A stretch of DNA of 42,069 nucleotides. Source: Bacteroidales bacterium. GTDB taxonomy: Bacteria > Bacteroidota > Bacteroidia > Bacteroidales > UBA7960. The stretch is taken from NCBI GenBank assembly GCA_007120085.1, contig SKOK01000108.1, positions 1-42,069 of the forward strand. Reading direction: 5' to 3'. Below, piece by piece: positions 14,442-42,069 of the stretch. The notes beneath the pieces are model-generated. The model saw nothing but the letters and a program-made list of their open reading frames with translations. It was not told where the DNA came from and ran no database searches. The number at the start of each line of letters is the position of its first letter. Positions within the stretch are counted from its first letter, which is position 1. The position numbers and the translations under genes are program-made.

Positions 14442-14963
14442 TTATGATAACAGCAGTTGCATGAAATACTCGTCTTTCCATTGTTTTTGGTGAAGCCTCC
14501 AGCTTTTGCGTGTACCGGTTAATTCAAACCCTTTGTTTTTGAAAAGCCTTACGCTATGATGGTTGTCAATACCCACACCGCAATGCAACTGTTTTAAATT
14601 CAGCACCTTGTCGGCATAACTGATGATTACGTCAAGTGCCTCCGATCCATATCCTTTGTTTCGTGAATCGGGCCCAAGAATGATGCCTATTGCAGCACGC
14701 TGGTGATGGGGATCAAAGTCGAAAAGGTCAATGATTCCAATTTGTTTTTCATTCTCGTCAACGATAACCAGACGCAGTTGCTTGTCTTCATAAATGTTGT
14801 TCTGTGCATTCAGAATGTATTGCTCAAGAAAAAACCGGGAGTGAGGATTGAGGTTGTTGGACGTATGCCAGTTTTCGGTATCGTTTTCCCATTCATACAA
14901 GACACCCAGGTCATCAATTTCAATTGGCCTGAGCTTTACGCGTTTTCCTTTTAGAAGTGTCAT
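14442..14963 (-). CDS. GNAT family N-acetyltransferase
   Basis: LKGKRVKLRPIEIDDL...AAIGIILGPDSRNKGYGSEALDVIISYA...NHHSVRLFKNKGFELTG. Confidence 0.9.
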   Translation of the reverse strand: MTLLKGKRVKLRPIEIDDLGVLYEWENDTENWHTSNNLNPHSRFFLEQYILNAQNNIYEDKQLRLVIVDENEKQIGIIDLFDFDPHHQRAAIGIILGPDSRNKGYGSEALDVIISYADKVLNLKQLHCGVGIDNHHSVRLFKNKGFELTGTRKSWRLHQKQWKDEYFMQLLLS

Positions 14964-14981
14964 GTGTTTATATTTTGGAGT

Positions 14982-14999
14982 GACAGGTCAAGCCCTGTC
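14982..14999. repeat. Mini-hairpin GACAGG-TCAAGC-CCTGTC, copy 1
   Basis: Perfect 6-bp stem, 6-nt loop; 20-bp exact direct repeat ACAGGTCAAGCCCTGTCGTT with copy 2 at 31-bp spacing. Confidence 0.9.
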
Positions 15000-15012
15000 G
15001 TTGCATTTGGGT

Positions 15013-15030
15013 TACAGGTCAAGCCCTGTC
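15013..15030. repeat. Mini-hairpin TACAGG-TCAAGC-CCTGTC, copy 2
   Basis: 5-bp core stem ACAGG/CCTGT, same loop TCAAGC; exact 20-bp repeat with copy 1. Confidence 0.9.
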
Positions 15031-15079
15031 GTTACGATGGTTTTTTGGGCTTGCATCCTGACTATCTGAAACGAGATTA

Positions 15080-15901
15080 TCAAAGTTTAATACTTCCTTC
15101 AAAAACAAGCTGAGCCGGACCATGCAGCCAGACATTGGTGAAAGCACGTTTTGTTTCCGTTGGGGCATCGAACGAAACGTCGAGACCTCCTCCATTTGTG
15201 TTGATGCGATAATGTGTAATTGATTTGTTGTTATTGTACATCCATGCAGAGATGGCTGCTGCCGTGGCTCCTGTTCCGCAAGAAAGCGTTTCGCGTTCGA
15301 CGCCTCGTTCGTATGTCCTGACAGCTATTGTTTGCTTGTCAAGTATTTTGACAAAATTTACATTGATGCCATCGACTTTCCACGGCGGGGAGTTTCTGAT
15401 TTCCCTGCCTGCCTCGATTACATCAATTTTCCATAGATGTTCGTTAAAGATGATCAGATGCGGTGAACCAGTGTCGATGAAGAATTCACCAGGGTTAAGC
15501 GTTTTGGGAGCAGCAACATCATTCAGTTGCACAGAAACTTCATATTTATTTTTGCTGATGTCGGTTATCACGGCCTTATGCAATCCGTCAACGGCCTTGA
15601 AAGTGGTTTTTGTTTCCTTTATGATTCCTGTCTGATGGGCAAAAGCCACAATTGACCTGCTGCCATTGCCACAAAGGCTGCCTTCCTTGCCATCTGCATT
15701 GTAATACTCCATCCGAAAATCAGCATTTCGTTCAGGCTGGAGAATAATCATGCCGTCAGCACCAATGCCATATTGCCGGTGGCAAATACCTGCAATGACT
15801 GCCTGTTTCAGAAAGCCCTCGAACTTGAACTTTCGGCGCCGGTTGTCAATGATAACAAAATCGTTACCACTACCGTGGTATTTATAAAATGGTAAAATCA
15901 T
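15080..15901 (-). CDS. dapF: Diaminopimelate epimerase
   Basis: YHGSGNDFVIIDNR, GSLCGNGSRS, YERGVERETLSCGTGATA. Confidence 0.96.
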   Translation of the reverse strand: MILPFYKYHGSGNDFVIIDNRRRKFKFEGFLKQAVIAGICHRQYGIGADGMIILQPERNADFRMEYYNADGKEGSLCGNGSRSIVAFAHQTGIIKETKTTFKAVDGLHKAVITDISKNKYEVSVQLNDVAAPKTLNPGEFFIDTGSPHLIIFNEHLWKIDVIEAGREIRNSPPWKVDGINVNFVKILDKQTIAVRTYERGVERETLSCGTGATAAAISAWMYNNNKSITHYRINTNGGGLDVSFDAPTETKRAFTNVWLHGPAQLVFEGSIKL

Positions 15902-40417: not shown

Positions 40418-40508
40418 AGGCTTATGGTTCATTGTTACGGGTTTCTGGTTACGGGTTTCTGGTTTCTAATTTCTAATTTTTGGTTGATGGTTTCTGATCG
40501 ATGATGTT
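40418..40508. repeat. Degenerate heptanucleotide tandem array, 13 in-phase units
   Basis: aggctta tggttca ttgttac gggtttc tggttac gggtttc tggtttc taatttc taatttt tggttga tggtttc tgatcga tgatgtt. Confidence 0.85.
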
Positions 40509-40532
40509 TTTCCTTTGAGGCGCGACTGTATT

Positions 40533-40550
40533 GGCCGGGCTTGACCGGCC
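40533..40550. repeat. Mini-hairpin GGCCGG-GCTTGA-CCGGCC
   Basis: Perfect 6-bp stem (7 with flanking T-A); loop is the reverse complement of the loop at 14988-14993. Confidence 0.9.
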
Positions 40551-40579
40551 AGCAAAATAACCCAGGGTGTGCTGTAGGC

Positions 40580-40597
40580 GACGACACTGGGGTCGTC
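40580..40597. repeat. Mini-hairpin GACGAC-ACTGGG-GTCGTC
   Basis: Perfect 6-bp stem and 6-nt loop, same geometry as the GCTTGA hairpins. Confidence 0.85.
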
Positions 40598-40658
40598 CGC
40601 AATCAAAAAGGCGGTGGCCACAATGCGGTAATGACATAATGTTCTTTATTCATTGTTT

Positions 40659-40707
40659 TTTTGCGCTCTTTGCGAGGAACAAAAAATTCCACGCAAAGGC
40701 CGCAAAA
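40659..40707. repeat. Imperfect 21-bp inverted repeat built of CTTTGCG/CGCAAAG modules
   Basis: TTTTGCGCTCTTTGCGAGGAA (40659-40679) vs TTCCACGCAAAGGCCGCAAAA (40687-40707), 18/21 complementary; further CGCAAAG at 40716-40722. Confidence 0.8.
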
Positions 40708-40794
40708 GTTTCTCACGCAAAGGTGTCATTAGTAGTCCCTCAGTATGAGCAAAATACAGCTCGAGATCAAATAACTTCAAAAACAAGTTACATA

Positions 40795-40970: not shown

Positions 40971-41900
40971 TCATATCCATTCTTCTTTGATCACTTCGCC
41001 TTGCAGACTTACTGTTATGGCTTTAACCGGCACTTTTCGGTTTGCTCTTTCGCTGGCCAGTTGTGCCATTTGCAGCAATCCTGAGCAGCAGGGTACCTGC
41101 ATTTTCATTACGGTTAACGTATTGATGCTGGCATCGTTGATCATTGCAGTCAGTTTGTCAATATAAACTTCTTTGCCCTGATCAAGCTTCGGGCAGGCAA
41201 TCGCCAGGCCCTTCCCTGCCAAATATTTGCTGTGAAAATTGCCCATCGAAAAAGCTACGCAGTCGGCAGCTAACAACACATCCGCATTTTGAAAATATGG
41301 GGCTTGCGGGTTGAGCAGATGAAGCTGCACAGGCCACTGCCTGAGCATGGAGCTTTGCTCTGTTTGGTTGTTTACCTCCACCGCCCTCGCAGGCTTTTCA
41401 AAATCCATCATTTGGGATCCGGGACAACCGCCAAAATGAACCTGACCATTCTTTAAGGATCTTTTAATATCATTATCAGTAACTTGCGAAGTGCCTTCGT
41501 GATCTTGTTTGCTCATAATGGGATTATTGTTAAATGGTTTTAGTTTCGTTAGGTTTACCTTGAGCTTGTGCTCTTTGATGTATTGTATGCCTTGTTCCAC
41601 AAATTCTGTTTGCAGATGGTCAATTAAATGGTTAAGGTGTGCGATTACGGTAGCTTCACCTTTTGGTGAAATCCTTTCCATTACTTTGTATTCGTCATAA
41701 GGTTCGGCCTCTCTTTCTTCGAGCGTGATGGCCGCAACCGGGCATTCGGGGATGCAAGCCCCCAGTCCGTCGCAATACAGGTCGCTGATCATGCGTGCTT
41801 TTCCGTCAATCAGCTGCAAGGCGCCCTCGTGGCAGCCCTCAACGCAAAGACCACATCCGTTGCAGAGGTCTTCGTCTATTTTAATTATGGTTCGTTTCAT
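40971..41900 (-). CDS. 4Fe-4S dicluster ferredoxin-type iron-sulfur protein
   Basis: CNGCGLCVEGCHEGALQ and CDGLGACIPECPVAAI; C-terminal cysteines in FGGCPGSQMMDF, ADCVAFSMGNFHSKYLAGKGLAIACPKLD, PCCSGLLQMA. Confidence 0.88.
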   Translation of the reverse strand: MKRTIIKIDEDLCNGCGLCVEGCHEGALQLIDGKARMISDLYCDGLGACIPECPVAAITLEEREAEPYDEYKVMERISPKGEATVIAHLNHLIDHLQTEFVEQGIQYIKEHKLKVNLTKLKPFNNNPIMSKQDHEGTSQVTDNDIKRSLKNGQVHFGGCPGSQMMDFEKPARAVEVNNQTEQSSMLRQWPVQLHLLNPQAPYFQNADVLLAADCVAFSMGNFHSKYLAGKGLAIACPKLDQGKEVYIDKLTAMINDASINTLTVMKMQVPCCSGLLQMAQLASERANRKVPVKAITVSLQGEVIKEEWI

Positions 41901-41977
41901 TGGTTCATAGTTTATGGTTCATGGTTGCTGGTTGCTGGTTACTGGTTTCTGGTTTCTGGTTTCTGGTTACTGGTTAC
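41901..41977. repeat. Heptanucleotide tandem array, 11 in-phase units (TGGTTNC)
   Basis: tggttca tagttta tggttca tggttgc tggttgc tggttac tggtttc tggtttc tggtttc tggttac tggttac; abuts the ferredoxin ATG (41898-41900). Confidence 0.95.
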
Positions 41978-42069
41978 GGCCGAGATAAATACATCCGTTT
42001 TTTCCGGCAACAAGATGGGCAACGGCGCGGGTGATCTTGCGCGTCACAAATGTCTCACCCCGCCGCGGG
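41967..42069 (-). pseudogene. gmd: Truncated GDP-mannose 4,6-dehydratase: …[33 protein letters not shown]
   Basis: Hand translation of the minus strand from the window edge; matches the conserved GMD segment (E. coli: [46 protein letters not shown]) and then reads into the heptad array, where TAA (41967-41969) stops it. Confidence 0.8.

Follow-up and report, generated by a model that had tools for sequence, protein, structure and literature searches.

The hairpins of the window and their surroundings

The window, i.e. the whole stretch of 42,069 nt that was analysed, contains three hairpins with perfect 6-bp arms exactly where the preliminary description had located them, at 40533-40550 (GGCCGG-GCTTGA-CCGGCC), at 14982-14999 on the minus strand, and at 40580-40597. 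The first and the third are separated by 29 nt (47 nt from start to start). The second lies 18 nt upstream of the start codon of a GNAT acetyltransferase gene and is accompanied on the same strand by a copy at 15014-15029, which had been overlooked, as had the position of both copies just 5′ of the minus-strand ATG at 14963. The two copies form a direct repeat (D5, spacing 31), and the pair occupies the region between dapF and the GNAT gene (14964-15050). The features are as follows, with the hairpins listed as candidate REP elements:

14442..14963, minus strand: GNAT acetyltransferase gene, start just 3′ of the REP pair (Pfam PF13302, 3e-21)
14982..14999, minus strand: outer-type (A-type) REP hairpin GACAGG-GCTTGA-CCTGTC with a degenerate foot, GCAA (sequence)
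15014..15029, minus strand: second A-type copy, ACAGG-GCTTGA-CCTGT (sequence; foot GTAA at 15032-15035)
15080..15901, minus strand: diaminopimelate epimerase gene (dapF), neighbour of the GNAT gene in relatives too (Pfam PF01678, 2e-41; synteny)
40528..40531, plus strand: GTAT foot (GTAN tetranucleotide) of the inner REP hairpin (sequence)
40532..40551, plus strand: inner REP hairpin TGGCCGG-GCTTGA-CCGGCCA, 7-bp stem and 6-nt loop (sequence)
40574..40577, plus strand: GTAG foot of the outer REP hairpin (sequence)
40580..40597, plus strand: outer REP hairpin GACGAC-ACTGGG-GTCGTC, 47 nt past the inner one (sequence)

Other copies of the outer hairpin at 40574-40597 read GTAGGGACGAC-ACTGGG-GTCGTCC. 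Two further kinds of repeats are found nearby. A second dispersed repeat (TTTGCGCTCTTTGCGAGGAAC...CGCAAAGGCCGCAAAAG...) at 40653-40735 has many copies in the genome of the window and in sister genomes. Arrays of 7-bp units (TTATCAA/TTATCAG and GGTTTCT/GGTTACT types) at positions 45-200, 40430-40495, and 41898-41990 are close to the contig ends and adjoin the hairpin module.

A dispersed family of hairpins with a common loop

The window belongs to a fragmented assembly of 2.56 Mb in 329 contigs that is 88% complete. The window alone contains 20 perfect hairpins of the 6-6-6 geometry, and dinucleotide shuffles yielded a mean of 13 (range 6-21), i.e. there is no excess; the unusual feature is the shared loop and not the number of hairpins. 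The preliminary description had held that GCTTGA should be more frequent as a loop than a random hexamer, and this was borne out: unbiased counts over the 2.56 Mb genome gave 103 occurrences of GGGCTTGACC and 9 of the reversed control.

The loops were then counted in 0.79 Mb of the genome. Among the perfect 6-6-6 hairpins, 64 had the loop GCTTGA, with four different stems, GACAGG (42), GGCCGG (17), CACAGG (4), and GGCTGG (1). The next most common loops were ACTGGG (9) and ACTTGG (8), followed by a loop with four instances, and the mean was 0.18 per possible loop. The fraction of GCTTGA hexamers that are enclosed in a perfect 5-bp hairpin is 11.6%, compared to 0.15% for all hexamers; as the contigs of the 0.79 Mb were mostly picked for holding GGGCTTGACC, the absolute enrichment of GCTTGA is inflated about threefold. 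The 7-bp stem TGGCCGG/CCGGCCA of the inner hairpin of the window was found in 17 copies in this part of the genome.

The copies share a common anatomy, i.e. a GTAN foot, a 7-bp stem, and a 6-nt loop (GCTTGA or the variants ACTTGG and ACTGGG). The foot is immediately 5′ of the stem; GTA is present in 81-86 of the 94 family hairpins and is followed by A, T, G, or C, with GTAG being common in other genomes. The outer (A) type is GTAA-TGACAGG-GCTTGA-CCTGTCA-AACCGAAATAT. The inner (B) type is GTAT-TGGCCGG-GCTTGA-CCGGCCA and is followed about 47 nt on by an outer hairpin with the loop ACTGGG or ACTTGG, e.g. GTAG-GGACGAC-ACTGGG-GTCGTCC. Additional stems with the GCTTGA loop include ACACAGG/CCTGTGT and AGGCTGG/CCAGCCT, among others, and some outer subtypes carry a short 3′ tail, ACCGAAATAT. 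The genome of the window contains 18 two-hairpin modules, in which the spacing of the inner and the outer hairpin is 46-51 nt. Thus, the hairpins with the same loop described earlier are members of a single dispersed family in which the loop is conserved and stem changes are compensated, and the ACTGGG hairpin at 40580, for which only the same geometry had been pointed out, also belongs to it; its loop is the second most common one and it is part of the same composite element.

Could the hairpins be accidental, with a hexamer that happens to be common as a loop in a genome of moderate GC content? The number of 6-6-6 hairpins inside the window, which falls into the range of the shuffles, would be compatible with this. 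The genome-wide ratio of 103 to 9, the ranking of the loops, the conservation of the foot, the fixed spacing of the modules, and the fact that RAYT genes in other species carry these modules too (see below) make a chance origin hardly credible.

The family has a high copy number and is dispersed and mostly extragenic: only eight of 55 A-type hairpins are situated inside crude ORFs, the calls of which cover 87% of the sequence. Copy counts of the family are patchy between sister species. A scan of public genomes with GACAGGGCTTGACCTGTC yielded, among the matches listed, some in Streptococcus suis, Mycobacterium, and Micrococcales without the GTA foot, which look like chance coding matches.

Compensatory changes in the stems

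For the analysis of stem pairing, 72 sequences of the form GTA-N8-GCTTGA-N7 were picked by the GTA foot and the GCTTGA loop only and were left unfiltered; they fall into two groups. At least six of the seven pairs can form in 51 of the 72, compared to 16.3 (maximum 25) after shuffling of the 3′ arms, and 12 distinct perfect 7-bp stems are represented. In an alignment of 56 sequences, 90.8% of the cells are paired, and changes on both sides occur in six of the seven pairs. The covariation score is 0.467, compared to 0.155 for shuffled arms (0 of 500) and 0.03-0.09 for slid arms. This alignment leaves out 16 seemingly unrelated background sequences, and the unfiltered count of 51 of 72 is therefore the cleaner test.

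The preliminary description had interpreted the covariation as evidence for selection on the folded form. The compensated stems are indeed seen. However, copies of a mobile repeat are related and changes are partly spread by copying, so that the covarying cells are not independent and the sites cannot be counted as separate events.

Presence and absence in related species

The dapF-GNAT region was compared with 17 relatives in which the GNAT gene could be aligned, and no such hairpin was found 5′ of the GNAT start in any of them. In the closest relatives, the junction of the two genes is only about 10-30 nt long. The absence fits an insertion in the lineage of the window, at a degree of divergence that makes the target-site junction undefinable. 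An empty-site comparison at 40533 showed that the gene order around this position differs in relatives.

At another site, the orthologous genes at L036 (genome of the window, G000) and L429 (G001) carry REPs of different subtypes and opposite orientation just 5′ of the start codon, which suggests independent insertions at one spot.

Association with RAYT genes in relatives

A search for hairpin-binding transposases had been recommended in the preliminary description, and the family could be linked to genes for RAYTs (Y1/HUH REP-associated transposases) in relatives. A Y1_Tnp search led to a locus in G032, a Bacteroidales MAG from soda-lake sediment of the same family as the window, where a gene is bordered by these hairpins on both sides. 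The coding frame of this first G032 copy (L115) reads as broken near the N-terminus. When its protein was used as a query, the best homologues were L150, a further and degraded copy in G032, and L132, an intact gene of 161 amino acids in G007, a species of the genus of the window.

At L131 and L150 (both G032), each side has an outward-pointing inner hairpin of the GGCCGG type and an outer hairpin of the GACAGG type, and the compensated stem AGGTCGG/CCGACCT is found in these flanks. On the 3′ side of L132, the inner hairpin is GGCCGG-acttgg-CCGGCC and the outer one GGACAGC-acttgg-GCTGTC; on the 5′ side, an outer hairpin (GGACAGC-acttga-GCTGTCC) is accompanied by degenerate repeats, with a further pair beyond. 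An N-terminal RAYT fragment in another species of the genus (L329, G003) has the module on its one remaining side. Thus, the inverted flanking hairpins are complete at L131 and L150, partly degenerate at L132, and one-sided at L329. The spacing of the inner and the outer hairpin at the RAYT loci is 46-49 nt, and the layout matches that of the window at 40528-40597. Dozens of other Y1/RAYT loci, within the family and the order as well as in further genomes with REPs, did not show the module and have different hairpins or none.

The RAYTs of the REP-rich genomes G020, G026, and G001 and those of Adhaeribacter and WOR-3 were rejected as partners, as their flanks contain other hairpins or none. 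One Adhaeribacter RAYT has REPs with a GGACAGG stem and the loop TCGCGA, and a GCTTGA copy is nearby; the inverted module is absent. More distant Bacteroidota RAYTs (L324, L325, L340, and L360; Adhaeribacter soli and Rufibacter roseus are among the hosts) have GTAN-GGACAGGTC-GC-GACCTGTCC in their flanks, i.e. the GGACAGG stem is kept and TCGCGA replaces GCTTGA as the loop.

In an alignment of nine RAYT proteins, the motifs N-H-x-H and Y-I-x-x-N-P (HUH and catalytic tyrosine) are invariant. The L115 protein scores 32.6 bits with Pfam Y1_Tnp (PF01797, cut-off 23), and the L132 protein is just below the cut-off (22.8). The best family match is NCBIfam NF047646 (REP_Tyr_transpos) with 52.6 and 60.5 bits, under the equivalog cut-off of 80; judged by these scores, the flanked RAYT is a divergent relative of this family and not an equivalog. 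The L132 RAYT had no match in the PDB when searched by sequence.

Taken together, we estimate with a probability of roughly 90% that the hairpins are non-autonomous, non-coding REP elements of a RAYT/TnpA_REP (Y1/HUH) lineage, because the nearest RAYT genes carry the same outward-pointing two-hairpin module. The family is presumably mobilised by the flanked RAYT. The founding module would have consisted of two hairpins of the same orientation about 47 nt apart with unlike stems (inner GGCCGG and outer GACAGG type), and the RAYT gene would have been bordered by two such modules, one on either side and inverted with respect to each other. The RAYT is predicted to bind the hairpin folded in single-stranded DNA and to read the loop and the GTAN foot; its tyrosine would nick next to the hairpin, and the unit would be copied or moved to new intergenic sites. 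As the stem need only pair, it could drift with compensation while the loop and the foot stay constant.

An origin as intrinsic terminators or other host extragenic signals (e.g. for supercoiling or DNA-uptake-like), rather than as mobile DNA, would agree with short, GC-rich hairpins that are mostly intergenic. For a terminator, a T-run 3′ of the hairpins would be needed, yet it is absent and the 3′ sides are A-rich, e.g. AAACCGAAATATAAACA, and a host signal is at odds with the fixed-spacing two-hairpin modules, the copies at RAYT ends, and the patchy counts in sister species. We therefore regard this explanation as very improbable.

The genome of the window itself (88% complete) did not yield a cognate RAYT in spite of the high copy number of the REPs. 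The only RAYT found, G000:C201, is tied to another REP type, GTAG-GGGCGACC-CTTGT-GGTCGCCC, which adjoins the gene and is also inserted in frame. The PF01797 profile search of this genome was empty because the RAYT lineage is divergent and the local RAYT carries an insert; its detection required a protein query. A close homologue of the flanked RAYT was also not found in the REP-rich relatives G020, G001, and G009. Across genomes, most of which are fragmentary MAGs, REP copy number and RAYT presence track poorly. The GCTTGA REPs of the window may have been left behind by a RAYT that has since been lost, or the missing 12% may contain the gene.

A subtype close to start codons

The positions of the hairpins relative to start codons were determined separately for the subtypes. 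For 42 of the 55 A-type copies (ACAGG stem, TGACAGG subtype), the ATG of an ORF of at least 40 codons follows 3-70 nt downstream on the sense strand, and in 13 copies the distance is exactly 19 nt. The control values were 11 of 55 for the antisense side and 305 of 1000 for random intergenic points. The inner type (3 of 18) and the ACTGGG/ACTTGG hairpins (7 of 17) are not associated with starts. The arrangement of the TGACAGG subtype is the same in G003, and the CACAGG subtype in G001, which has the same tail, shows no start-codon association. An A-rich stretch before the ATG is also present without hairpins; the A-rich leader is thus, at least in part, the host's own.

The start-codon subtype is the most interesting feature of the family. 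The TGACAGG subfamily (with the AAACCGAAATAT tail) might be specifically inserted or retained about 19 nt 5′ of starts in the sense direction and hence act as genome-wide 5′-leader control elements, a proposal that we consider tentative and rather doubtful. If it were true, TGACAGG REPs would supply a part of the A-rich initiation leader together with a hairpin. The REPs described so far are situated near the 3′ end of the gene that precedes them, with a varying distance to the downstream gene (PMC3733652), and the start-proximal subtype contradicts this placement; its effects on translation are testable. The position close to starts could reflect a preference for certain targets or a regulatory role that was adopted.

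The sense-strand association of the A-type (42 versus 11 of 55), its recurrence in G003, and the predicted RNA fold (−11.6 kcal/mol, z −4.1) could also indicate that the hairpins as such are cis-acting RNA leader elements in 5′-UTRs, where a protein would bind the loop or the hairpin would control initiation at the nearby start. However, the inner-type, ACTGGG/ACTTGG, and G001 CACAGG hairpins are devoid of this association, the same hairpins flank RAYT genes, they are missing at dapF-GNAT in the 17 relatives, and no Rfam match above the gathering score was found in the window. A primary function as RNA leader is thus unlikely; some copies of the REP family could have taken on such a role secondarily.

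Comparison with known REP systems

The preliminary description had proposed an undescribed element. This does not hold for the kind of element, as the hairpins fit the RAYT-associated, GTAG-tagged REPs (PMC2817692, PMC3733652, PMC6006769), and the class of REPs and RAYTs is known, also from Bacteroidetes (PMC6006769). A description of the GCTTGA family itself was not found in the open-access literature searched.

The features shared with GTAG-tagged REPs (Nunvar et al. 2010, PMC2817692; Di Nocera et al. 2013, PMC3733652) are a short perfect hairpin, an unpaired tetranucleotide at the 5′ foot, high copy number, dispersal, extragenic sites, compensated stem changes, and inverted hairpins on both sides of the RAYT gene. 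The GCTTGA family differs by the GTAN foot, the 6-nt loop, the module of two unlike hairpins that follow each other in the same direction at a distance of about 47 nt, the ACCGAAATAT tails of some outer subtypes, and the start-codon link of the TGACAGG subtype. The TnpA_REP subclasses 2.4 and 2.6 of Bacteroidetes have the phylum and the protein family in common with the present lineage (PMC6006769). In subclass 2.4, in-frame REP inserts occur, as in the G000:C201 RAYT of the window's genome; in contrast, the GTAN-7-6-7 hairpins of the L115/L132 lineage are unlike the double-foot type of subclass 2.4 and are not matched by a description in the sections of that source that were consulted.

For the group 3 TnpA_REP of Stenotrophomonas/Marinomonas, recognition depended critically on loop bases and cleavage on GTAG, and a paired stem was needed (PMC8266576). 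Because related enzymes read the loop and the GTAG foot, a constant loop and foot with a drifting, compensated stem would be predicted. Perfect stems and the logic of a conserved loop and a variable stem are shared with group 3, which has loops of 3-4 nt and for which a two-hairpin module was not described. The constant loop and foot of the GCTTGA family with a drifting stem represent a natural data set on how RAYTs read hairpins, and a REP family from uncultured Bacteroidales that was so far uncharacterised gains a candidate transposase.

REPINs (Bertels and Rainey 2011, PMC3116915) are likewise RAYT-dependent short repeats that are able to pair up. A REPIN consists of two identical inverted REPs that move as a unit, whereas the common pair of the GCTTGA family has direct orientation and unlike stems: all 18 modules in the window's genome are of this same-strand kind, and only one inverted pair (L014) was found, so that the elements are not REPINs. 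Inverted hairpin pairs, rare in the window's genome, are present in G032. Two compact elements of G032 (L280 and L266) are made up of inverted REP modules without a RAYT, in L280 around about 100 nt that contain no gene, and are embedded in a longer dispersed repeat, which is found around the copy with the RAYT in L131 as well; they look like internal deletion derivatives.
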